Source: a virus
Length of the DNA stretch: 22,430 bases
Reading direction: 5' to 3' (one strand)
IMG/VR virus record: IMGVR_UViG_3300011114_000075
Coordinates: 1 to 22,430 of that record
The notes below the pieces were generated by a model, which was not told the origin of the DNA, searched no databases, and saw nothing but the letters and a program-made list of their open reading frames with translations. Shown here in pieces: positions 2-21,752 of the stretch. Made by a program: the position numbers and the translations under genes. Each line of letters opens with the position of its first letter. Positions within the stretch are counted from its first letter, which is position 1.

Positions 2-121
2 ATAACAAAACAAGGTATATATGATATGGAATTAAGAGATGCTCAAGGTAATATAACTATTGGTGCTATTTTTAAAGCATTATCTGCTATGGGTTATAAA
101 TATCAAAATAGAGCAAAATAA
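2..121 (+). CDS. HTH (XRE-like) regulator, C-terminal fragment
   Basis: An open frame enters from the left edge and ends at TAA 119-121, giving 39 residues. The fragment contains KQGIYDMELRDAQGNITIG followed by AIFKALSAMGYKY. This pattern (recognition helix, short D/E-rich turn, 'G-x-I-T' strand start, then a helix ending in an 'AMGY' turn) resembles the C-terminal part of small XRE-type HTH proteins, especially the 'mobile mystery protein A' type. It is the only convincing plus-strand gene and it converges on the late operon. Its stop abuts the terminator that faces the other way. It could be a phage or host regulator or an antitoxin. The N-terminus lies outside the window, so the family is inferred from the tail alone. 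Confidence 0.6.
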   Translation: MTKQGIYDMELRDAQGNITIGAIFKALSAMGYKYQNRAK

Positions 122-3553: not shown

Positions 3554-6500
3554 TTATTTATTTTCTAGTTTATCTAATCTATCTTGTAATGATGTTATCA
3601 TTAATTGTTGTTCTTGAATGGCTTTTATATAAACTGCGTGTAATTGGCTATATTCAATACCCATTTTACCTGTTGATTCAGTTGTAAATACTGCTTCAGG
3701 TATTATTGCTTCCATCTCTTGTGCTATATTACCATTTTGCCTTCCTTCACCATAATTTTTATATTCATCAATAAAATCAAACCATACTGGATTCATTTTA
3801 ATTATTTCTTTTAAACCATATCCAATTGACTTAATGTTTTGTTTTACTGATATATCGGAAACAGGTGCAGATAAAGTACCACTTGCATCTGCTAATACTG
3901 CTCTACTTCCTGTACCTGCTAAATTGCTAAATGTAGCTGCACCTGTTGTTGCTCCTATGGTAAGTCTTGTAGTTCCACTTGTTCTAAAAGTAATAGGATG
4001 AGCTGTACTTGTGTTAATGGAAAGACCATTTGTATTATCAGGATAGATATATGAAGAAACAGAAGAATCAGAAGAATCTAGTACAATTGCACCTCCTTTA
4101 GTTGTTGCAGTACCTACTATTCTAAGTGTTGTTGCACCTGCAGAAACTGCTGAAACACTTGTTGTCCCCATTCCAACATTTCCACTATTTGTAGCAAAAT
4201 AACTATCTCCTGTAAATCTTCCTGTACCTGTAACATCTAGTGTATAAGTAGGAGTTATATTATTAATTCCAACTGAACCACTAAACAATGCCGCATAATT
4301 TATATTCGCATTATAACCATTAACTCCTATTCCATTAGTAAATGTAGTTAAACCTCCTGAAGCTATCGTTACATTAGTAGTTGAAGCAGAACCACCTAAA
4401 AATAAACCACCACCATTTGCATAAATTGAAATATACCCACTAGCTCCTGTATTTGTAATTGAAGTTGAACTTGTAAAGTTTAATCCACCTGTTCCACCAC
4501 CTAATGTTAATACTCCGCTTACTTTTGCAGTTCCGGTTACATCTAGTATAAAAGCAGAAGGTGCTCCACCAATACCAATCTTTGTAGCTTGTAAAGTTGA
4601 ACTAAACGTTCCTGCTCCTGCTTGAGTTATAGTAACAACAGTTCCTAATGTACTTGAATAAAATTCTAATAAACCTGCACTTGTTCTTCCGTTTTCAATG
4701 TTCCAATTTTTGCCTCCTATTCTATTATCTATTAATTGAAATAAAGGGAAATTATCACTTGATGTTGCTTGTACTGTAATATTTCCTGTACCACTAGCAA
4801 TAATGTTACCACCTGTTGTTAAAGTTGAACTAAATGTCTTAGCTCCTGCTATTGTTTGAGTTCCTGTTGTAACATAACCTGCTACTGAAGCACTAGCTGC
4901 TTGAGAACTAATTACTCCCGTTGAAGAATTATAAAATATAGGGCTAGTTGCACTTAATGAACCTAAAACAATATAAGCACTTGAATCTACTGAACCATCT
5001 GCTTTTAAGAATTGACTTGATGTTCCCCCTGTCTTAACAAAAGATGTAGCAGTTGCACTTGAATCAAAGGTTGCAGCACCCGTTGTATTCGCTATTGTTA
5101 AACCAAGACTACTTCCATTAGATAAAAGTATATCTCCTGCATTAGCATAAATCTGAGTAAGATTTGTAGATTGTACATATTGAAAACCAGCTGTTACACT
5201 ACCATTTAATAATAATCTTACCGCAGTAGAACCTGTTGTATTTTTGTTTTCAATACCTAACCAAGCATTTGCGTTTTCTCCCACATTTGCAGCTATATAA
5301 GTTACATATTGAGCCACCGCTTGTGTACCTATACCTAATTTCATATTGGTATTATCCCAATACAATCTTGTATTATTTTGAGCAATAGTTGAACCATTAC
5401 TAAACAATATAGAACCACTTGTTAAAGATGGCAAAGTAAACTTGCCGTTAAAAGTATTCCAATCCGTAGATGTTAAATAACCGCTAACCGATGTAGTAGC
5501 AGCCGCCATTGATATTGCAGGAGTTGTACCACCACTTGAAACAACTGGAGCAGTACCAGTAACCGAAGTAACAGTTCCGCTTCCTTTATTGTTAAAAGTA
5601 TTCCAATCAGTTGAAGTCAAATAACCACTTACGGAAGTTGTTGCCGCAGGGATTGAGATAGTATTTGTAGTTCTTACTAAAGGGCTAGAAAAGGTCAAAG
5701 GATATTCGTAATCAGTTCCACCTACCGCAGCAATGATTTGTCCTGATGAATTAGCTTTTAACATACTAGATGTAACAGTCTGATAAATAGAACCACCATA
5801 CGCTTGGATTGAACCAACAACAGTTAATTGTTGTGTCATAGGTATTACACCAATATTCCCTATTGCTACATTATTTGTGCCATCAATAGTAACAACCCCA
5901 CTCCCACCATTATTGATTAATATTTGACTAGCAGTTTCCACATTAGCTATTACTAAAGCCGTTGGAGTTACTTTTATATAAGAACCATCTGTTGAAGTAT
6001 AACCTGTTGTTGGATTGTGTAATCTTATCTCTACGCTTGTACTTATTGAAGTAAAGTCATAAACAGTTGTAGCACTTGAACCTTGAGGATTCAACGTATT
6101 AAAACCTATGTTATTATTGCTACTTTCTGGTACTGATAAAAAACCACCTAAAGCATTGTAGAAACTCAAATTACTAGCTGTACCTGTGCCTAATCTATTA
6201 TAGCCATAAACCATACCAAAAGAAGAATCATAATATATATTCGCTTGATATTGGTTTGCACTATCTGATGTTCTTACTTGAAGCCCTGTTGAACTAGAGT
6301 TTAATATACCTAAACTTGCGTTAGGGGTATTAGTGCCTATTCCTAGCCTTGAGGTTGAATTATCCCAATAAAAGTTAGCACTACCGCCCAAAGTAGTAGA
6401 ACCTCCGTTAAAGAATGCTACTTGACCACTAGAGCCACTCCCCCCAATCTTACCATTAAATGTACTCCAATCTGTTGAACTTAATTTACCTGTATTACTA

Positions 6501-7786
6501 GCAGATGCGGTAGGTAAGTTAAAAGTATGCGTAGCAGTTGATGAACTAATTGCAAAGTCAGTTCCACTTGTACCTGTTGCAAAATATTGTACTTGAGCAG
6601 TCAAACCATTCAACGCAGTTATACCCGTTGAGAAAGTTGTTATAACAGAACTCAAATTTGGATCTTGAGTGTGCATTGTAATTGTCTTGCTAGAATGTAT
6701 TACATAAACTCTTACTGCCAATCTATCGGTAACTGTTAAAACTGTTGCTGGAACTGCTAAAGCAGTTATATATAAATCTACCGAAGTGCCATTTGTTATA
6801 TATTCAGGATTTGCTGAACTTGTAGCTATCAAAGTAAATGTACTTGAAGCATATTTATACAACTCAACATAAAAACTAGGACTTCCACCTGATGAATTAG
6901 AATTCATATAAATCTCAAAGTTCCAATTACCTGCTGGTATATTTAATTGATTTGGCGAACCTACATCTGTTAAAAAAGATGCTATATATCCATCTGCACT
7001 AATACTAAAATCAGCACTTGTACCTGTATTAGCAACAGTACTCATTTGCTCATATCCTACAACACTTGAAGCAACACCACCATTAAAATAAAATGTTTGA
7101 CTTGAACCTCCTCCGCCACTACTAGGATTATAAGCCGCTAAAGAACCATCTCCACGAATATACTGAGAAGCGTTACCTGCCCCTGTTACTGCAATCGTTC
7201 CATTAGCCGTTAGAGGGCTATTAGCGACACTAAAAGCACTTGGCATTGTAAGTCCTATGCTATTAATAACTGTTGGAAATGTAGTTAAATTACCTGCTCC
7301 GTTAACATATTGAAGATTTGTCCCGTTGAAATTAGCAGAAATTACACCGCTTGTTGTTACTGGCGAAGAACCAATTGTGATAGAATCTCCATTAGTGGAT
7401 AAGCCAACAGATGTTACACTTCCCGTTGCACCACCTGACCTTTGCCAAATACTTCCTGAATATATAGCCGAATCCCCTACTATAAAAGTAATAGGACCAG
7501 CCCCAAAATTTGTTGTTCCAGCAACATTACATAAATAAACATCACCTTGATTAAACGCACCACCATTGGTTAATGTTGGGGTATTTGTTGCAGCGTTCCA
7601 AGTTCCTTGATATTCCATTACCGAATTAGGTAATTGGCTTACCAATATCTTAGCATTAGAATCTAACTTAGGAACACCATTAGCTACGTTGAAAGCTAAA
7701 GAACTTAGTACTCCACTTGTTCCAATGATTACATCATTTAAATCTCTTACTTTCGCACCCCCTGTTATCTGTAATTGTTGACTCAT
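3554..7786 (-). CDS. Tail fibre with C-terminal S74 intramolecular chaperone
   Basis: A 1410-residue receptor-binding fibre. The N-terminus (1-58) is a probable attachment region. Residues 59-117 are a 'GTWNA' domain also present in the tail-tip protein. The shaft is rich in S, T, G, A and N with repeated units: DWNTFN-type (three copies), FYWDN...LGIGT-type (two copies) and LDVTGT-type (two copies). The C-terminal 101 residues are a Peptidase_S74 domain: SDISVKQNIK at 1310-1319 with the Ser1310/Lys1315 dyad, then GNIAQEMEAIIPEAV and IEYSQLHAVYIKAI, then a final coiled coil. By family knowledge the chaperone trimerises the shaft and then cleaves itself off just before Ser1310 (codon 3857-3859). 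It starts 5 bases after the upstream stop. Confidence 0.9.
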   Translation of the reverse strand: MSQQLQITGGAKVRDLNDVIIGTSGVLSSLAFNVANGVPKLDSNAKILVSQLPNSVMEYQGTWNAATNTPTLTNGGAFNQGDVYLCNVAGTTNFGAGPITFIVGDSAIYSGSIWQRSGGATGSVTSVGLSTNGDSITIGSSPVTTSGVISANFNGTNLQYVNGAGNLTTFPTVINSIGLTMPSAFSVANSPLTANGTIAVTGAGNASQYIRGDGSLAAYNPSSGGGGSSQTFYFNGGVASSVVGYEQMSTVANTGTSADFSISADGYIASFLTDVGSPNQLNIPAGNWNFEIYMNSNSSGGSPSFYVELYKYASSTFTLIATSSANPEYITNGTSVDLYITALAVPATVLTVTDRLAVRVYVIHSSKTITMHTQDPNLSSVITTFSTGITALNGLTAQVQYFATGTSGTDFAISSSTATHTFNLPTASASNTGKLSSTDWSTFNGKIGGSGSSGQVAFFNGGSTTLGGSANFYWDNSTSRLGIGTNTPNASLGILNSSSTGLQVRTSDSANQYQANIYYDSSFGMVYGYNRLGTGTASNLSFYNALGGFLSVPESSNNNIGFNTLNPQGSSATTVYDFTSISTSVEIRLHNPTTGYTSTDGSYIKVTPTALVIANVETASQILINNGGSGVVTIDGTNNVAIGNIGVIPMTQQLTVVGSIQAYGGSIYQTVTSSMLKANSSGQIIAAVGGTDYEYPLTFSSPLVRTTNTISIPAATTSVSGYLTSTDWNTFNNKGSGTVTSVTGTAPVVSSGGTTPAISMAAATTSVSGYLTSTDWNTFNGKFTLPSLTSGSILFSNGSTIAQNNTRLYWDNTNMKLGIGTQAVAQYVTYIAANVGENANAWLGIENKNTTGSTAVRLLLNGSVTAGFQYVQSTNLTQIYANAGDILLSNGSSLGLTIANTTGAATFDSSATATSFVKTGGTSSQFLKADGSVDSSAYIVLGSLSATSPIFYNSSTGVISSQAASASVAGYVTTGTQTIAGAKTFSSTLTTGGNIIASGTGNITVQATSSDNFPLFQLIDNRIGGKNWNIENGRTSAGLLEFYSSTLGTVVTITQAGAGTFSSTLQATKIGIGGAPSAFILDVTGTAKVSGVLTLGGGTGGLNFTSSTSITNTGASGYISIYANGGGLFLGGSASTTNVTIASGGLTTFTNGIGVNGYNANINYAALFSGSVGINNITPTYTLDVTGTGRFTGDSYFATNSGNVGMGTTSVSAVSAGATTLRIVGTATTKGGAIVLDSSDSSVSSYIYPDNTNGLSINTSTAHPITFRTSGTTRLTIGATTGAATFSNLAGTGSRAVLADASGTLSAPVSDISVKQNIKSIGYGLKEIIKMNPVWFDFIDEYKNYGEGRQNGNIAQEMEAIIPEAVFTTESTGKMGIEYSQLHAVYIKAIQEQQLMITSLQDRLDKLENK
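5444..5617 (-). repeat. DWNTFN repeat pair in the fibre gene
   Basis: Two near-identical coding repeats centred on STDWNTFN lie at about 5444-5473 and 5588-5617. Each is preceded in the protein by ATTSVSGYLT. A more diverged third copy (SSTDWSTFNGK) lies at about 6450-6479. Intra-fibre repeats like these allow recombination that changes shaft length or swaps tips. Confidence 0.75.
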
Positions 7787-8505: not shown

Positions 8506-10902
8506 ACCATATATTTCTAAAATATAACCACTACTACTTATTTTGTAAGCGTGGTATGATAATGCGTCATTCATTACTCTCCACCACAAACTAGCACCAT
8601 TAAAGCCATTTATTAAATCTTCATCTGAATAATATCTATCCCCAACACTAGGTGCACCATTCGTATTGTTATAAATCAAGAATGTAGTTAAAGGTGCTGC
8701 AAAGGCAGCTTCTCTAGTAAAATATGCCGTTGACCTCAAATGACCATACCCAGTTGTAATAGGTTGTAAAGTATTTGTAAAATACCTTGTTGCTAAAGTA
8801 GTTTCAATATTTGTATTATTTATGTCTAATAAAGTTGCTTTTATTGTATTATTAAATAAATCAATAGTTGAATTCCCTATCATATATTTTTTAGCAGATA
8901 CATTAATTTGAGCTGGGTCATCATCGGTAGCAGTAATTCTAAGTGCTCCATTTAATCTACCATCGCTAGTATCCATCCCCATAAAAGATGCATCAATATT
9001 AATTAAATTTTTATTTAATGCATTTGAATATTGTTTGATTACTAATTCATTTAAAGAACTATATATTTCAGTAGGATATTCATATCTATACCAACCACTT
9101 AATGATAATCCATTGTAATCACATAAAAAACCTTTAAATGAAAAATACCCAGCCTTTGGGTTGTTAAACCCTATTGAAAAGTCAGCATTATATACATAAT
9201 CTTCTACATCACTTATAAAAGATTCAGTTAATAAAGATTTATAATTAGGATTAAATGCTAAAACAAAGTTTTGTATTTGCACTGCACTTTGAGTTGAAAA
9301 TGGGTATCTTGTATAACCAGTAGGGGCTACACCTTGACTAACTCCAATCTCTATATTTAAAGTTCCAGTATATGGAGCAACAGGTAATTCAATACTTGCA
9401 TTATTTGATGAATTATCAGTTGTATAAGGTACAAAAGTATATCCTGCTTTTGCAGTCCAAGTAGATGTGCCATAAACAACTAAATCTCCAACATTAAAAT
9501 TATATGTAGTAGAACCAAATGTATGTACCCCCGCAACTGAAACTAAATAAGTATCATTTGTAGTTCCTGTCCCATTTACTAAAGATGGACTATTTGTTGA
9601 TGCATTCCAAGTACCCTTATAATTTTTAGTAAATTCTAAATTCCAAGCATTATTTGTACCTAAATAAAATGTATAAGAATCAGTAGTTAAAATAACTTTA
9701 ACATAAGCTAAAGAAACTGGACCAACAGAAGCCCCAATTGCAACACAATCAAATGATAATTTTGCACTTTCATTTTGTGATAATATTGGTAAATTAATTG
9801 GAGATACAAAATTTCCATAATTACCAAGACTTAAAATATAAGCGTTTAAAGCACTTGTAGGATAATCTTTTATAGTAATACTTCCACCTGTACCTAAATT
9901 AGTTTCAGTCCAACTATTAGCATCATTACCAGTAAAATCTTTTAAATCGTAGTTGGTTATATAATTGCTTGAATAATCTATTGTTTTATTGAATCTTATT
10001 TTATTATACCCCTTTCTAAATATTTTATATTGACCATTGTCAACAAAGAATAAGCCACTTGTATTAGAACTATAACCTTGTATTTGACCTGTAAAATCAA
10101 TTGTTCCACTTCCAACTATTGTATATTGACTATATTCTGTGTAATAATATGAATCTTGTGCTAATTGGTTTATAGGAACAATATACCATTTAGAACCAGC
10201 TTGGAATATTCTAGCCCCGAAACCTTGTACAATTTGAGAAATTATTTCTAAACAAGTTACTGTTACCTTTTTATTTGTAGTTGTAGTTGTTAAATTATTT
10301 TGGTCTAAAAATGTATTTAATTTAATATATGTTTGAATTAAAGGCTCTGCATCCCCACTTGTACTTCTATTTGTCATAGCATAAGAATAATAGCTTATCC
10401 CACTTATAATATTTAAAAAATCAGGGAATTGTATTTGGCTTAAACAATTTGTTATATATGTAAGGCAAGTAATTCTATCATTTAATGAATAATTATCTTC
10501 TAAAGGATAATAAATATTCTGTAACATCCCTAAACCATCTATGCAATTAAATGAAATTGTTTTCCTCCCTGTACTAAAATTAAACTGTACATTATCACTT
10601 AAACTCCATCCTTGCCATTCTAAAGTGTCAGCATTAAATAATTGAGCATAATATTTTCTATCATCTAATGATGTAAGATTTGGCATATTTTCAATGTCTT
10701 CAGTTACATCTATTGAAACATCTAATTGACTAACTACAATTGGCTCAAATACATTATCACTTCTTGGAATATATTGTAATTGTAAACTTACTGCTGGATA
10801 TTCTATTAAATCTCCTGAATACCCATCTTCTAATAAATACAAATAAGAAATAGTACCACTTTTGGTAGCCATTGTAATTTTATATTTATTTGCGTATGCC
10901 AT
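8503..10902 (-). CDS. Tail tip / baseplate hub-like protein with inserted GTWNA domain
   Basis: A 799-residue beta-rich protein directly after the tape measure, the usual place of Dit/Tal-like tip proteins. The N-terminal 130 residues look like a distal-tail strand-rich domain, with repeated acidic and aromatic segments such as DDRKYYAQLFNADTLEWQGW. The middle region to about 330 would be hub-like. Residues about 380-545 resemble a carbohydrate-binding beta sandwich interrupted by a GTWNA domain at about 428-484. The C-terminus is unassigned. It starts at ATG 10900-10902, overlapping the tape measure TAA as TAATG. The role is inferred mainly from position and size; no enzymatic motif was seen. 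Confidence 0.7.
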   Translation of the reverse strand: MAYANKYKITMATKSGTISYLYLLEDGYSGDLIEYPAVSLQLQYIPRSDNVFEPIVVSQLDVSIDVTEDIENMPNLTSLDDRKYYAQLFNADTLEWQGWSLSDNVQFNFSTGRKTISFNCIDGLGMLQNIYYPLEDNYSLNDRITCLTYITNCLSQIQFPDFLNIISGISYYSYAMTNRSTSGDAEPLIQTYIKLNTFLDQNNLTTTTTNKKVTVTCLEIISQIVQGFGARIFQAGSKWYIVPINQLAQDSYYYTEYSQYTIVGSGTIDFTGQIQGYSSNTSGLFFVDNGQYKIFRKGYNKIRFNKTIDYSSNYITNYDLKDFTGNDANSWTETNLGTGGSITIKDYPTSALNAYILSLGNYGNFVSPINLPILSQNESAKLSFDCVAIGASVGPVSLAYVKVILTTDSYTFYLGTNNAWNLEFTKNYKGTWNASTNSPSLVNGTGTTNDTYLVSVAGVHTFGSTTYNFNVGDLVVYGTSTWTAKAGYTFVPYTTDNSSNNASIELPVAPYTGTLNIEIGVSQGVAPTGYTRYPFSTQSAVQIQNFVLAFNPNYKSLLTESFISDVEDYVYNADFSIGFNNPKAGYFSFKGFLCDYNGLSLSGWYRYEYPTEIYSSLNELVIKQYSNALNKNLINIDASFMGMDTSDGRLNGALRITATDDDPAQINVSAKKYMIGNSTIDLFNNTIKATLLDINNTNIETTLATRYFTNTLQPITTGYGHLRSTAYFTREAAFAAPLTTFLIYNNTNGAPSVGDRYYSDEDLINGFNGASLWWRVMNDALSYHAYKISSSGYILEIYG

Positions 10903-12728
10903 TAACTTCCTCTTTTAAGATTAAGTGAATAATTTGACCTTTGTAAAGCTAATACTAAATCGTTACCTTTTAATGTAAACTCCCCACTATTACCCATAGA
11001 ATTTGAACTAATATTACTTGTATTCATAGCAGAACCAACTGATGCACCACCTTTAGTAATATTATATAATGCACTTAACCATCCTGTTCCTGAATCACCA
11101 AGAGCAGGGCTAATTCCGCTACCTGTAATAGCAGTTGCTGGGGATATTGATGCTAATACAGCTTTAAATATTACTTCTTTTATTATTGCTGCTCCAATGT
11201 CTTCAGCTAATTTTAAAAATGATTCTCCTAAAGATTTAAGCACATCTCCACCTTTTACCATTGTATCAAATACATTCATCAAAGCATTAGTTACATCTCC
11301 AGAAAGAGTTTTAGCAAATTCTTTATACGCATCTTGTTGTTCTTTAATTACTTTTACTCTTTCTTTACCATCTACTATATAATTACGTATAAGTCCAGGT
11401 ATAACACTTGTACTTATTTTTTCAGTAGCTACGTTTTTACCCCCCATTTGCCTAATCATCCAATCAGGTACATCTAAATCAGGATTTCTTTGTCCTTCAA
11501 CAGTATCTCTCCATCCAATAGTTGTTGCTTTTTTAGAAGATGCAGCTATTTTATCGTGAATCTTAATTTGTTCATTAGCCCATTCAGTTGTTTTTCTAAT
11601 ATCATATTCTAAAAGTGCTATTTTTTCATCTAATGCTTTTTTAAATTCTTTATTATCTTCTTTTTGAGGAATTTTAACTTTTAATACTTCATCAAGAGTT
11701 CTACTTAATGAATCTTTAGCTTTATTTATATCAGATTGTGCACCTGCTAATACATCAACATAACTTGCCTTTATTTCATCTCTTAATTGTTGAGTTGTCT
11801 TACCTTGTTCTTGCTGCTTTGTTGTTGCGTAAGTATTTTTAATTAAATTATCTCTTTCTTCAGTAATTCTTTTAAATTCAGCATTAGCAGCACTTAACGC
11901 ACTAGTATAATTTTTTTCTTTACCAATTTCTAATTGTTGAATTGCCGCCTTATTATTTAATGATTTTAAATAATTTGCAGTATATGTATCTATACTTTTT
12001 ATATCTAAATCTTGTATATCTTTATTGTCTTGATATAATTTTTTTAATTCTATAATAGCATTTTGCCTAGTCGTAATATCTAATTTTTGATTAGATACTT
12101 TTTCTGATAATATACTTCCAATTAATTGATTTGATTGAGCAGCACCAGCAATTTTATAAATATCATCATTAAGTTTTAATAATTCTTCTCTTAATTTTTT
12201 TAATTTATCAACTGGTTTTTCAAATGCTTCAGTTATATTTTTTGAAAATACAACTAACAATGCTGAAACTGCACCTATTGCTAATCCTATACCAGCAGGT
12301 CCAGATAACCCATTAAGCATAGCAGTTAATGCTTTTTTAGTTCCACCTTCAGTTGCAGCTAACCTATAAAATGATTCAATCATTGGATTAAGGTTATTAG
12401 ATATGCCTATAAATCCATAAGGAGCATCTTGTGCAATCCTTGAAAGGTCGTTTAATGCCAAACCTGCCTTATTACTACCTAAAGATATTTTTTGCGTATC
12501 ATTGCCAAAGTTGTCAAATGCAACTCCCGCTTTACTTAAAGTACCTTGTAATTCTCCAATCCTAGCTTGTATTCTAGGTATTGTTGTTTCAATCGTATGT
12601 GTTAAAGGCCAGTCTCCTTTATAATTCTTAACTGTTTCCAGTAATTGGAATAATTTATCTTGGAGTTGCTTTAATTCTTCTAGTGCCTTTTGGTTCTCGG
12701 CTGAAATTATAATTTTTAACTCTGGCAT
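10902..12728 (-). CDS. Tape measure protein
   Basis: A 608-residue protein that sets tail length. It has long charged coiled-coil stretches (about 10-70 and 170-470), a hydrophobic segment at 141-161 (GPAGIGLAIGAVSALLVVF) and a glycine/serine-rich C-terminus. The segment LNDLSRIAQDAPYGFIG at 92-108 is typical of tape measures from Bacteroidetes phages. At about 1.5 angstrom per residue of helix this predicts a tail near 90 nm, which is an estimate. It follows the chaperone GT frame by six bases, the standard siphovirus order. No lytic domain is evident. Confidence 0.9.
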   Translation of the reverse strand: MPELKIIISAENQKALEELKQLQDKLFQLLETVKNYKGDWPLTHTIETTIPRIQARIGELQGTLSKAGVAFDNFGNDTQKISLGSNKAGLALNDLSRIAQDAPYGFIGISNNLNPMIESFYRLAATEGGTKKALTAMLNGLSGPAGIGLAIGAVSALLVVFSKNITEAFEKPVDKLKKLREELLKLNDDIYKIAGAAQSNQLIGSILSEKVSNQKLDITTRQNAIIELKKLYQDNKDIQDLDIKSIDTYTANYLKSLNNKAAIQQLEIGKEKNYTSALSAANAEFKRITEERDNLIKNTYATTKQQEQGKTTQQLRDEIKASYVDVLAGAQSDINKAKDSLSRTLDEVLKVKIPQKEDNKEFKKALDEKIALLEYDIRKTTEWANEQIKIHDKIAASSKKATTIGWRDTVEGQRNPDLDVPDWMIRQMGGKNVATEKISTSVIPGLIRNYIVDGKERVKVIKEQQDAYKEFAKTLSGDVTNALMNVFDTMVKGGDVLKSLGESFLKLAEDIGAAIIKEVIFKAVLASISPATAITGSGISPALGDSGTGWLSALYNITKGGASVGSAMNTSNISSNSMGNSGEFTLKGNDLVLALQRSNYSLNLKRGS

Positions 12729-12734
12729 CTTATT

Positions 12735-13064
12735 TTAATTTACTCCGTATAATTTTAAAGTTCTAGTTAATTGGTCATCTGTTAACATTTCCCTTTTTTC
12801 TTCTTCTTCATTGTCATCTAACATAGGTATGTGCCAAAATGCTCTTAATGATTTTGGAGACTTTTCAGTTGTATTACTTAGGTATATAATATAGGCGAGG
12901 TTTCTTGTCCTCGCCCATTCATTTAACTCCTGTCTTTCTTTTCCCATCACAATGATAGAAAAATCTTTCCAAGTAATATCCCAAAACTCATTTGGCTTTA
13001 TACCACATTCAGCAGCCTTAACTAATATGTCATCCCAACTTAGATTTGTTAGGCTTTTTTTTTT
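12735..13064 (-). CDS. Tail assembly chaperone GT extension, reached by frameshift
   Basis: The frame ending at TAA 12735-12737 is open upstream through the A10 run of the G gene. It reads SLTNLSWDDILVKAAECG and then GIKPNEFWDITWKDF, before the part that starts at GTG 12948-12950 (MGKERQELNEWARTRNLAYI). The 'W-D...FW-x-x-T' segment is the hallmark of GT domains of tail chaperones and would be lost if translation began at 12950. It is thus almost certainly made as a G-GT fusion of about 221-222 residues. GT binds the tape measure during tail assembly and is absent from the virion. Independent initiation at 12950 or 12947 is less likely. Confidence 0.75.
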   Translation of the reverse strand, partial: KKKSLTNLSWDDILVKAAECGIKPNEFWDITWKDFSIIVMGKERQELNEWARTRNLAYIIYLSNTTEKSPKSLRAFWHIPMLDDNEEEEKREMLTDDQLTRTLKLYGVN

Positions 13065-13401
13065 CTTCTGTTGGTGTTGTTTTTACAGAGTTAACTGTAT
13101 TTTCAATTATATATTTAATATAATCTATCAACTGCCCTTCAGAACTAAAAATAGTCCCCATTTCATCTATCCAATCACAAGCATCATCTTCTGTAAATTC
13201 AATTGGTATTTTTAAAGAATTACAAGCGGACTTATAACCAATAAATACTAATTGAACAATTAAGTCAATATCAAATTGCGATTTACCAAGTAATTCAAAG
13301 TACTTATCAATTGTTATATTGTTTCTTTGGCAAAACTCACGCATTGCCCAAGTACCCCATTTTAAATGGATTGTGTTGTTGTTCAGTCTTAATTCAAACA
13401 T
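13030..13401 (-). CDS. Tail assembly chaperone G
   Basis: A 123-residue protein between the major tail protein and the tape measure. It begins MFELRLNNNTIHLKWGTWAM. The WGTWAMREFC segment, the helix NNITIDKYFELL and the acidic helix EFTEDDACDWIDEMG fit Bacteroidetes tail assembly chaperones. The C-terminus is a lysine-rich linker encoded partly by an A10 run, ending at TGA 13030-13032. It coats the tape measure together with the frameshifted GT form. Confidence 0.8.
   Translation of the reverse strand: MFELRLNNNTIHLKWGTWAMREFCQRNNITIDKYFELLGKSQFDIDLIVQLVFIGYKSACNSLKIPIEFTEDDACDWIDEMGTIFSSEGQLIDYIKYIIENTVNSVKTTPTEEKKKPNKSKLG
13052..13068 (-). other. Programmed frameshift site, A10 slippery run (+1 or -2)
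   Basis: On the minus strand GAA GAA AAA AAA AAG CC (frame 0) contains ten A (13064-13055) between G residues. Frame 0 ends 25 bases later at TGA 13030-13032, while the GT frame is open through the run. A net +1 or -2 shift joins the two. -2 shifting is known for the Mu tail genes and -1 for lambda. RNA polymerase slippage on A10 could do the same. Confidence 0.75.
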
Positions 13402-13416
13402 AGTTTTTTATTTTTT

Positions 13417-13869
13417 TTATGTCATTTCAGTTTGTGCAATAGGAGGAACACACACAACAAAAGTAGCAGAGAATTTTACATCATCTTTATCAGCAGCAGT
13501 TACATCAAAGTTGCTAATAAATACTGTACTTGTTGATAATCCACCATAGTAAACATCACCTGCAGCTGGAGTCGCTTTACCCATTTTAATGGTAAATTGA
13601 GTTCTTGCAGCGTGAGCAGCATACAATTGTTGGTAAGAATCTTTACTTGGAGTTCCTGTTTCATCAATTGCAAAACCATCGGCTTTGAAAGATTGAGTGA
13701 ATGCTGGACCTGCTTGGAATTGGTCTCCACATTTTGAAGTTGCATCAATAGTGTTAACAGTTGATGTAAGTGAGTTTGTTGTTAAACAAGCTACTGGTAT
13801 AAAAGTTGTACCACCAGCTAAATCTGCTAAGAGAATATAGTCCCTTGCTGATACTTTAGTTTCTGCCAT
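13417..13869 (-). CDS. Major tail protein (tail tube)
   Basis: A 150-residue protein immediately before the tail chaperones, in the standard place of the tube subunit. It is rich in A, T, S and D with alternating strands. Features include CLTTNSLTSTVNTIDATSKC, then GPAFTQSFKADGF, SYQQLYAAHAARTQFTIKMG and a C-terminal strand pair STVFISNFDVTAADKDDVKF. This matches the TP901-1/lambda V type of tube fold (single domain, no Ig extension). It begins MAETKVSARDY at ATG 13867-13869, five bases after the previous stop. It is followed by an A-rich 15-base gap before G. Confidence 0.85.
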   Translation of the reverse strand: MAETKVSARDYILLADLAGGTTFIPVACLTTNSLTSTVNTIDATSKCGDQFQAGPAFTQSFKADGFAIDETGTPSKDSYQQLYAAHAARTQFTIKMGKATPAAGDVYYGGLSTSTVFISNFDVTAADKDDVKFSATFVVCVPPIAQTEMT

Positions 13870-19935: not shown

Positions 19936-21252
19936 TCAAAATACACTTACTTGAAATCTTGGAGTATATTCAAAGAACATTCTCATTGCCAAACAATCAC
20001 TAAAATCTGGTGAACGACCTATTGCAGCTTTGACTTTATCCTTTGGTATTACTCCTTTCTTCATATCATTATCAACAGACTTTTGTTTCACTTGTTCTAG
20101 TTCCTGAATGATAGTTTGTTTTTGCTTCCCATCTGCTTGAATATAGACTTCTGCTTTATTAACTAAATCAGCTAATTTAAAATAGCATTGAGACTTTAAG
20201 TTATCAAAGTTTTCCTTTTGTCTAGTTATAGGGTTTACTAATGGAGAACTATTATTGACAAAGCCCTTGCATCGTAGAATATCAACCACACCCGCACCTA
20301 TGCCATCTTCATCTGCCACAATGTTTGATAATGGTACTTTATGTTCTAATGCAAAGTTCTTTATAAGTTCAGCAACTTCAACAATTGATTTACCATTGAA
20401 TTGATAAAGCCTAACACGAAACCCATTCCATATACCAATAACAGTACTATCATTACCAAAACGTGCCACATCACAAGTAATGTAAGCATCACCAATAGCA
20501 ACAAAAGTATTGGTAAAAGAGTCAAGTATTTTATCATAATCTATAAGTTGAGCAGGGTCATCTAAATATTCCCAGTTACCAAATAAAAGCCTTTCTTTTG
20601 ATACGCTATCTAATCCTAAAAGGTTTTCTTTATAGTGTTTAGATATGTACGGATTATCATCTATTAACGAAGCAATAAATCTTTTATTCTTAGCTATTAC
20701 TCCATCTTGTTCTGGTTTATAGAACTCAGAGTAAGTCCAATTCTTTGCAGGGTTACAAGTATAAAGAATCTTAGGTATTAAATCGTTTTGGTCCAGTTGA
20801 AATCTTATCCTTGACTTAATGATATTTCTAGCTTTGTCATCTACTTGGTTTGCCTCATCTATAAACGCATCGGTAATCTCTAATGAACCTAATTCATCAA
20901 AGTTAGGGTCGGAAGGGTAGGAGTAAAGGTCTTTGAGTAGGATAGTAGAACCATTAGGGAATTCTATGGTAGAAGATTGAGCATTGAATTTAAAATGCTT
21001 ATTGGCTTCTAGTCCTTGCATTTTAGCTATCTGGAAGAAGGAAACTAAGGTAGTTTCTTTTAGAGTTTTTAACACGGCTCTCCCAATTAGTCCTCTTGTA
21101 TTGGGATATTTTAATCTTTGTTTAAGTTGCCAGTAGCAACCTAACGCCGTTTTTCCCCCGCCTCAACCTGCCCCGCCTCCGAAAAGAACCTCGTTTGTGC
21201 GAGTATCTTCAAGAAGGTCAAGGGCAGTAGTTTGTTTTATTGATAGTTCCAT
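19936..21252 (-). CDS. terL: Terminase large subunit, interrupted by in-frame TGA at codon 30
   Basis: The packaging motor ATPase/nuclease, 438 codons before the stop. It begins MELSIKQTTALDLLEDTR at ATG 21250-21252, joined to the HNH stop as TAATG. Walker A reads LFGGGAG, then TGA (21163-21165), then GGGKTALGC. Removing six bases (TGAGGC) would give the usual FGGGAGGGKT. Walker B is FIDEA (D132, E133) and the coupling motif is YTCNPA. Nuclease acids are D261 (CDVARFG), D314/D316 (ADEDGIG) and D416/D419 (SPDFSD). The rest is intact. Initiation at GTG 21073-21075 would yield 379 residues without Walker A, so no ATPase. It may be an assembly error, a decayed gene or recoding. The real gene ends at TGA. 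Confidence 0.85.
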
Positions 21253-21752
21253 TAAATAAATTGCTTGTATGTCTTGTTTTGTAATATATCTTTTATAACC
21301 CATTCAGATACTTCGTATGCTTCAGCTAACATTTTTCTTGTTATAACATTTGGAGTATAAGTTTCTCTTATTTCAATTACTTGGTCTCTAGTTAAATGTT
21401 TATTTTCCCCTGAATAAAAAAAGAATCTACCCATCATTATTGAATGCTGAGTATTTTGCTTTGGTGTAACCCATTCAAGATTTTCAACTCTATTATCAGT
21501 CTTGATTGCGTTTATGTGATTTACTTGTGGCAAATTGTTTGGGTTAGGTATAAAGTTTTCAGCTACTAATCTATGTACTTTTCTTGTTACTAATTTACCA
21601 TCTTTCATTAAACCAACCCTACGATAACCTTTATTATCTGTTGCTGGTTTTAAGATTGCTTCTCTACCTTTTACTCCATATTGAGTTTTAGTTAAAATGT
21701 CTCCGTTTGGATATATCCAATAAAGACCTTCAAATCCTTTTAGTTCTTTCAT
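21252..21752 (-). CDS. HNH homing-type endonuclease (NUMOD4 + HNH_3)
   Basis: A 166-residue DNA endonuclease. The N-terminal NUMOD4-like segment is KGFEGLYWIYPNGDIL (5-20). The HNH_3 core is VHRLVAENFIPNP (H60), QVNHINAIKTDNRVENLEWV (N78, H79, N87) and NTQHS (H103). A C-terminal DNA-binding helix-turn-helix (about 120-162) reads LTRDQVIEIRE then LAEAYEVSEWVIKDILQNKT. Such genes are selfish and often sit beside the conserved gene they target. It lies between the two terminase genes, with its own promoter, and shares one base with the large terminase start. It is likely a free-standing mobile element rather than part of packaging, although HNH proteins near terminases can be needed for packaging in some phages. 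Confidence 0.88.
   Translation of the reverse strand: MKELKGFEGLYWIYPNGDILTKTQYGVKGREAILKPATDNKGYRRVGLMKDGKLVTRKVHRLVAENFIPNPNNLPQVNHINAIKTDNRVENLEWVTPKQNTQHSIMMGRFFFYSGENKHLTRDQVIEIRETYTPNVITRKMLAEAYEVSEWVIKDILQNKTYKQFI

Follow-up and report, generated by a model that had tools for sequence, protein, structure and literature searches.

A conserved poly-A run at the overlap of two putative tail assembly chaperone frames in phages of likely Bacteroidota hosts, and polymerase slippage as a candidate recoding mechanism

Genes and reading frames at the G/T overlap

The window analysed here, that is the whole stretch of DNA under study, comprises 22,430 nt of the IMG/VR virus record IMGVR_UViG_3300011114_000075. 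Its minus strand carries, in this order, the terminase, the portal, head genes, neck genes, the major tail protein, a reading frame that we call G, an overlapping frame T and a tape measure candidate (Table 1). The G/T pair is thus flanked by the gene for the major tail protein and that for the tape measure, the latter being assigned mainly by its position and length; it matches phrog_30292 (E = 6e-19) and, weakly, the tape measure family phrog_10613 (E = 0.07), and a homologue at the corresponding position in Cellulophaga phage phi12:1 is annotated as tape measure protein. The portal is 27-32% identical to portals of Cellulophaga and Flavobacterium phages, and a scan of genomes for prophages found one close relative, in a Chitinophagaceae MAG contig, which together make a Bacteroidota host likely. 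A class-wide search for prophage relatives returned distant matches as well.

Table 1. Features at and around the G/T junction (positions in the window)
Feature	Position	Strand	Remarks
Major tail protein gene	13417..13869	minus	upstream neighbour of G; phrog_1407, E = 7.2e-14
G ORF, putative tail assembly chaperone, unshifted product	13030..13401	minus	123 aa; ends ...EEKKKPNKSKLG, then stop
T frame, open, +1/-2 from G	12735..13082	minus	stop ends at 12735
A10 slippage run (putative)	13055..13064	minus	0-frame GAA GAA AAA AAA AAG CCT; T frame resumes at AGC CTA
GYCTAR just past the run	13049..13054	minus	closes the third (-1) frame with GCC TAA
T domain proper (SLTNLSWDD...YGVN)	12738..13055	minus	phrog_16333, E = 3.3e-6; phrog_2066, E = 4e-5
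Conserved RNA hairpin in T	12886..12922	minus	14-bp stem with a single bulge, closed by an 8-nt loop; 137 nt downstream of the run
Tape measure candidate	10902..12728	minus	608 aa; downstream neighbour, starts 7 nt past the T stop

The 3' end of G reads GAA GAA AAA AAA AAG CCT AAC AAA TCT AAG TTG GGA TGA and includes ten consecutive A's; nowhere else in the 22.4-kb window do nine or more A's or T's follow one another, although about two A runs of this length would be expected by chance on that strand. At this run, the T frame reads KKKK-SLTNLSWDDILVKAAECGIKPNEFWDITW..., and if one base is skipped, or two are read back, translation proceeds as K-S-L-T-N-L-S-W-D-D-I-L and stays open to the end of T. 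A -1 shift from A_AAA_AAG, in contrast, produces KKKA and terminates at once (GCC TAA), so that the T frame is not reached. The initial annotation had described T as open from the A run through 12735, which is exact (open from 13082 to 12735), and its statement that the W-D-D...FW region has no start codon ahead of 12950 is borne out as well; the first ATG, GTG or TTG of the T frame in the window is found at this position, inside the domain. As there is no earlier one, initiation at 12950 would forfeit the conserved W-D-D...FW part.

For G, an AlphaFold2 model (pLDDT 85, pTM 0.80) was matched by Foldseek to several viral models named tail assembly chaperone, the best with E = 6.1e-4 and TM 0.66 and the others weaker; a PDB fold search with the same model gave no significant match, and a search of NCBIfam gave none. 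The model of T is less certain than that of G (pTM 0.56), and its best fold matches are unnamed phage proteins. The two PHROG families matched by T have no assigned function, and a weak similarity to Phage_TAC_6 (E = 0.12) stays below the cut-off. Gene order, the overlapping and startless T frame, its conservation in hundreds of relatives and the predicted fold of G nevertheless support the original proposal of a G-GT pair of tail assembly chaperones, with G and T connected at the A run by a net shift of +1 or -2. By this best explanation, the phage would be a siphophage and the pair its tail assembly chaperones, with a presumed role in tail assembly like that in phages such as lambda, where the G-T fusion connects the tail tube protein with the tape measure.

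Junctions of related phages and selection on the run

Related junctions were retrieved with unbiased, protein-based scans, using T, G, the L139-type T and the T of Flavobacterium phage 11b as queries, and with a DNA pattern that allowed synonymous breaks in the run. In all 209 distinct junctions G and T overlap, T is out of frame with G and a pure run of at least eight A's is present (at least nine in 208 of them); we found no relative among them that lacks both the run and the open frame, which would have counted against the initial annotation. Most junctions (148) combine A10 with a required shift of +1/-2, as in the window, and 55 combine A9 with -1. The remainder consists of three A9 junctions needing +1/-2 (L007, phi12:1 and phi18:1), one A13 junction needing +1/-2 (L017), and Cellulophaga phages phi17:1 (A10, -1) and phi10:1 (A8, +1/-2). 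What is constant among the 209 is therefore the long pure run, while the codon phase and the size of the shift vary. The claim of the initial annotation that the net shift is +1 or -2 and not -1 consequently applies to the window and fails as a universal rule, given that the A9 relatives need -1. The T proteins of phi17:1 and phi12:1 are at least 99% alike, although phi17:1 has one A more and needs the other shift; this difference could represent either a natural experiment or an error in sequencing the homopolymer. Among the distant prophage-like relatives in Bacteroidota genomes, one (L405) has A9 and needs -1, and another (L406) has only six A's, within the classical -1 heptamer A_AAA_AAC.

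Conservation extends to synonymous positions of the run. With the pattern GAR AAR AAR AAG, which permits interruption by AAG or GAG, all 124 distinct contexts were found to be uninterrupted and to read GAAAAAAAAAAG; the Glu codon just upstream of the run is GAA in 84 and GAG in 17 contexts of this set. On a tree of 106 A10 representatives, the three wobble sites within the run underwent no change at all, compared to a mean of 8.6 A/G wobble changes (5.5 for Glu, 13 for Lys) at 19 conserved two-fold Glu, Lys and Gln sites that served as controls, only one of which was unchanged. AAG does not occur at the first Lys codon of the run in any relative. A ribosomal +1 shift needs only A's 6-9 of the run and a -2 shift A's 4-10, so that the Glu wobble base (A2) should be free under both and A5 free under +1, as they lie outside the respective stretches. 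The invariance of A5 is strong support for selection on the run, that of A2 taken alone modest, since 1 of 10 other Glu sites is also unchanged. By these comparisons, selection is shown to act on the whole pure run. The length of the run also looks capped: all 20 L139-type relatives have GAG, the rarer codon, ahead of their nine A's, and every member of the phage 11b family has a pyrimidine there, consistent with selection for an exact length.

Immediately after the run comes a Leu codon, and in 164 of 166 A10 members it is CTA, even though TTA is commonly used (347 TTA versus 51 CTA in the window). The stop in the third frame is insufficient as a reason for this preference, as TTA yields the same stop; coding in the 0-frame (AAG YCT ARY) may explain the conserved C.

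Polymerase or ribosome as the maker of the fusion

Unaltered A10 mRNA would yield the 123-residue G, and a minority of events would join G to T. An mRNA with nine A's, or a ribosomal +1 shift, would give a 221-residue fusion (EEKK-SLTNLSW); one with twelve A's, or a ribosomal -2 shift, a fusion of 222 residues (EEKKK-SLTNLSW); and one with eleven A's, or a ribosomal -1 shift, a G-like protein of 117 residues that stops at once (KKKA, then TAA). The same proteins result whether the polymerase or the ribosome slips. While we infer from this anatomy that a fusion is made, the question of its maker has to be decided on other grounds, and here we consider transcriptional slippage by RNA polymerase at the A10 run slightly more probable than not. 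On such a template the polymerase would generate mRNAs with 9, 11 or 12 A's, and those with 9 or 12 would be read straight into T. Since one slipping polymerase would provide the -1, +1 and +2 lengths together, a change of the T frame from -1 to +1/-2 or back would entail no loss, and the different shifts required among the relatives therefore favour this mechanism.

A second argument comes from the avoidance of runs elsewhere. In 644 ORFs from contigs of this phage group, A7 runs occurred at 0.80 and A8 runs at 0.27 of the codon-shuffled expectation, and A9 was absent where 15.4 were expected; by inspection, the few longer runs in this census are the G or T genes themselves. T runs were depleted too, to 0.35 for T7 and 0.06 for T8 (1 versus 18). 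An onset of avoidance at nine has been described for many genomes as a mark of transcriptional slippage (Baranov 2005, PMC1088944), and the onset near nine seen here points the same way, since an effect of slippery heptamers should strike A7 already. The locus thus combines an uninterrupted homopolymer of about nine or more with the avoidance of such runs in other coding regions. E. coli ribosomes, moreover, show little sliding at A9 or A10, with strong sliding setting in only at A11 (PMC4363877), and in IS1447 transcriptional slippage on A9 proceeds in both directions, at about 16% each (PMC6211511). Other observations argue against the polymerase: the junctions with A9 and -1 fit the classic ribosomal heptamer A_AAA_AAA, the A_AAA_AAC of L406 looks ribosomal, phi10:1 has only A8, and runs of A8-A9 also harm ribosomes, so that their avoidance is not exclusive to the polymerase. 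The initial annotation had mentioned polymerase slippage as something that ten A's permit; on comparison of sequences it emerges as the better-supported mechanism.

The strongest competitor, which we regard as a substantial if lesser possibility, is a programmed ribosomal -2 shift, in which the P- and A-site Lys-tRNAs on AAA AAG would re-pair two bases back on AAA AAA and continue with AGC CTA. Full re-pairing is permitted by A's 4-10, and the 222-residue fusion would be obtained from unedited A10 mRNA, just as phage Mu does at its own site; phage G-GT shifts are classically ribosomal, and recoding by -1, -2 or +1 is already known for them (PMC5009743). The A9 relatives with their heptamer, and L406, suit a ribosomal origin too. 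However, A_AAA_AAG lies in frame at the very same site, where -1 should dominate and would lead to immediate termination; the Glu wobble base of the run is not needed and yet invariant; and the relatives would have to swap -1 and -2 upon the change of a single base. Nor is there a stimulatory structure nearby: the spacing of 5-10 nt at which one would act shows no stable fold (mean z -0.9 at +6..85, weaker than upstream), and folding just past the run (mean z -0.9 to -1.2) is no stronger than upstream of it.

A programmed ribosomal +1 shift, with the P-site Lys-tRNA slipping one base forward on AAA, would reach T in one step with four A's, giving the 221-residue fusion. It is nonetheless improbable, considering that A's 6-9 would be enough while the whole run is kept and the first Lys codon is never AAG, that the A site holds neither a stop nor an obviously hungry codon, and that relatives needing -1 could not use it. 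Even less credible is a scenario without any fusion, in which an internal or unusual start serves to translate T as a separate protein. An in-frame start ahead of the conserved domain is indeed present in 71 of 156 members of the window family, as well as in phi12:1 and phi10:1, but there is none in the other 85 window-family junctions or in any of the 29 of the phage 11b family and the 20 of the L139 family, and the invariant run would be left unexplained; as most relatives lack such a codon, an internal start is rejected. That the A10 is a sequencing or assembly error, to which homopolymers are prone and which may account for phi17:1 versus phi12:1, is hardly conceivable and already refuted for the window, because independent assemblies from many metagenomes agree on the same A10 and offset in 148 distinct junctions.

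The switch from G to GT is known from textbooks as a conserved ribosomal frameshift of tailed phages. The window shares with lambda G/GT two ORFs that overlap and have the major tail protein and tape measure genes as neighbours, the startless downstream ORF and a slippery A-rich site near the end of G, but lambda employs a ribosomal -1 shift, whereas the window requires a net +1/-2 on a pure A10 (PMC5009743). The -2 shift of the phage Mu tail chaperone entails the same net frame change (PMC5009743); unlike Mu, the window has a pure A run, its relatives with such runs include ones that need -1, and its mechanism may be transcriptional. In having a pure run of about nine A's it resembles Thermus thermophilus dnaX (A9) and IS1447 (A9), where the mRNAs differ in length, more than one frame is translated into products and another frame meets a stop soon after the run (PMC1088944, PMC6211511). 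These are non-tail genes in which slippage was measured, while for the window it is inferred. Phage 11b and Cellulophaga phages phi12:1, phi18:1, phi17:1 and phi10:1 have a homologous T, an overlapping out-of-frame G and runs of A8-A10. In 11b (L281), the T gene (12176-12529) has A9, a -1 offset and no start in frame, whereas phi12:1 needs +1/-2 on its A9; in these isolates, G and T stand in the annotation as two hypothetical genes, and no frameshift is mentioned, and the T genes of 11b and of the Cellulophaga phages L282 and L283 appear as separate or truncated hypothetical proteins. In the open-access literature, we found no report of transcriptional slippage in a G-GT pair, and none of frameshifting in the corresponding tail genes of Flavobacterium or Cellulophaga phages. 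Annotation pipelines restricted to ribosomal shifts of -1 or +1 overlook T, leaving it cut short or listed as separate hypothetical genes, as in isolates like phage 11b.

A conserved hairpin within T

In folding windows along T, unusual stability was confined to 80-159 nt past the run (mean z -2.84 and -3.08), with none beyond. It is accounted for by a single hairpin of the sequence AUGAAUGGGCGAGG-ACAAGAAA-CCUCGCCUAU-A-UUAU, the pair cells of which are kept to 99.0% in 35 distinct sequences, compared to 32-65% in sliding controls. The pair formed by the wobble bases of an Ala GCN and a Leu CUN codon is GC in 63, AU in 55, UA in 4 and CG in 1 of 123 representatives; on the tree, each column changed 12 times and the pair 12 times, so that all 12 changes at this synonymous pair were double, independent and compensatory, and it is Watson-Crick in all 182 distinct contexts. 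The stem codons Arg AGG, Asn AAC, Ala GCC and Tyr UAU are invariant. The hairpin occurs in the window and L139 families, in members with A10 as well as in those with A9; in the phage 11b family the same hairpin was looked for and not found, and Rfam gave no credible match near the site. For the 11b family (L281, region 12176-12529), consensus folding suggests a different, long-range stem, GGCGAA...UUCGCC, early in T.

At 137 nt from the run, the hairpin is beyond the range of ordinary frameshift stimulators and is reached only by ribosomes already in T. Because the majority of ribosomes terminate where G ends, this part of the mRNA is expected to be folded and largely free of translation. A kissing interaction of the loop (ACWMGAAA) with YCTAR past the run was rejected, as no consistent covariation was seen, and so was an intrinsic terminator on the sense strand, as the scan flags the antisense copy only. 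A role in mRNA stability, in processing or in limiting tape measure expression would be a guess. More broadly, it is tentatively conceivable, though rather doubtful on present comparisons, that a large group of Bacteroidota phages sets the ratio of its tail chaperones by polymerase slippage on a length-capped poly-A run, that the T frame drifts while the run stays, and that the hairpin is part of the same control. If the group does use transcription in place of the ribosome, this ratio would depend on the host polymerase and the exact run length, and how a recoding site switches mechanism and direction could be tested directly on the hundreds of variants that nature offers in this family (A8 to A13, -1 and +1/-2).

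Elsewhere in the window, an in-frame TGA breaks the frame of the large terminase (TerL) within the region of its Walker A motif (about 21150-21175, minus strand), beside a short insertion. In relatives L174, L184, L222 and L274 the frame is intact at this spot, and the TGA of the window record is therefore a mutation or an assembly error. Directly ahead of the terminase gene, an HNH endonuclease with a NUMOD4-like motif is inserted (21252-21752, minus strand), which is likely a free-standing homing endonuclease. A tail fibre-like protein of 1410 residues (3554-7786, minus strand) ends in a C-terminal Peptidase_S74 self-cleaving chaperone domain.
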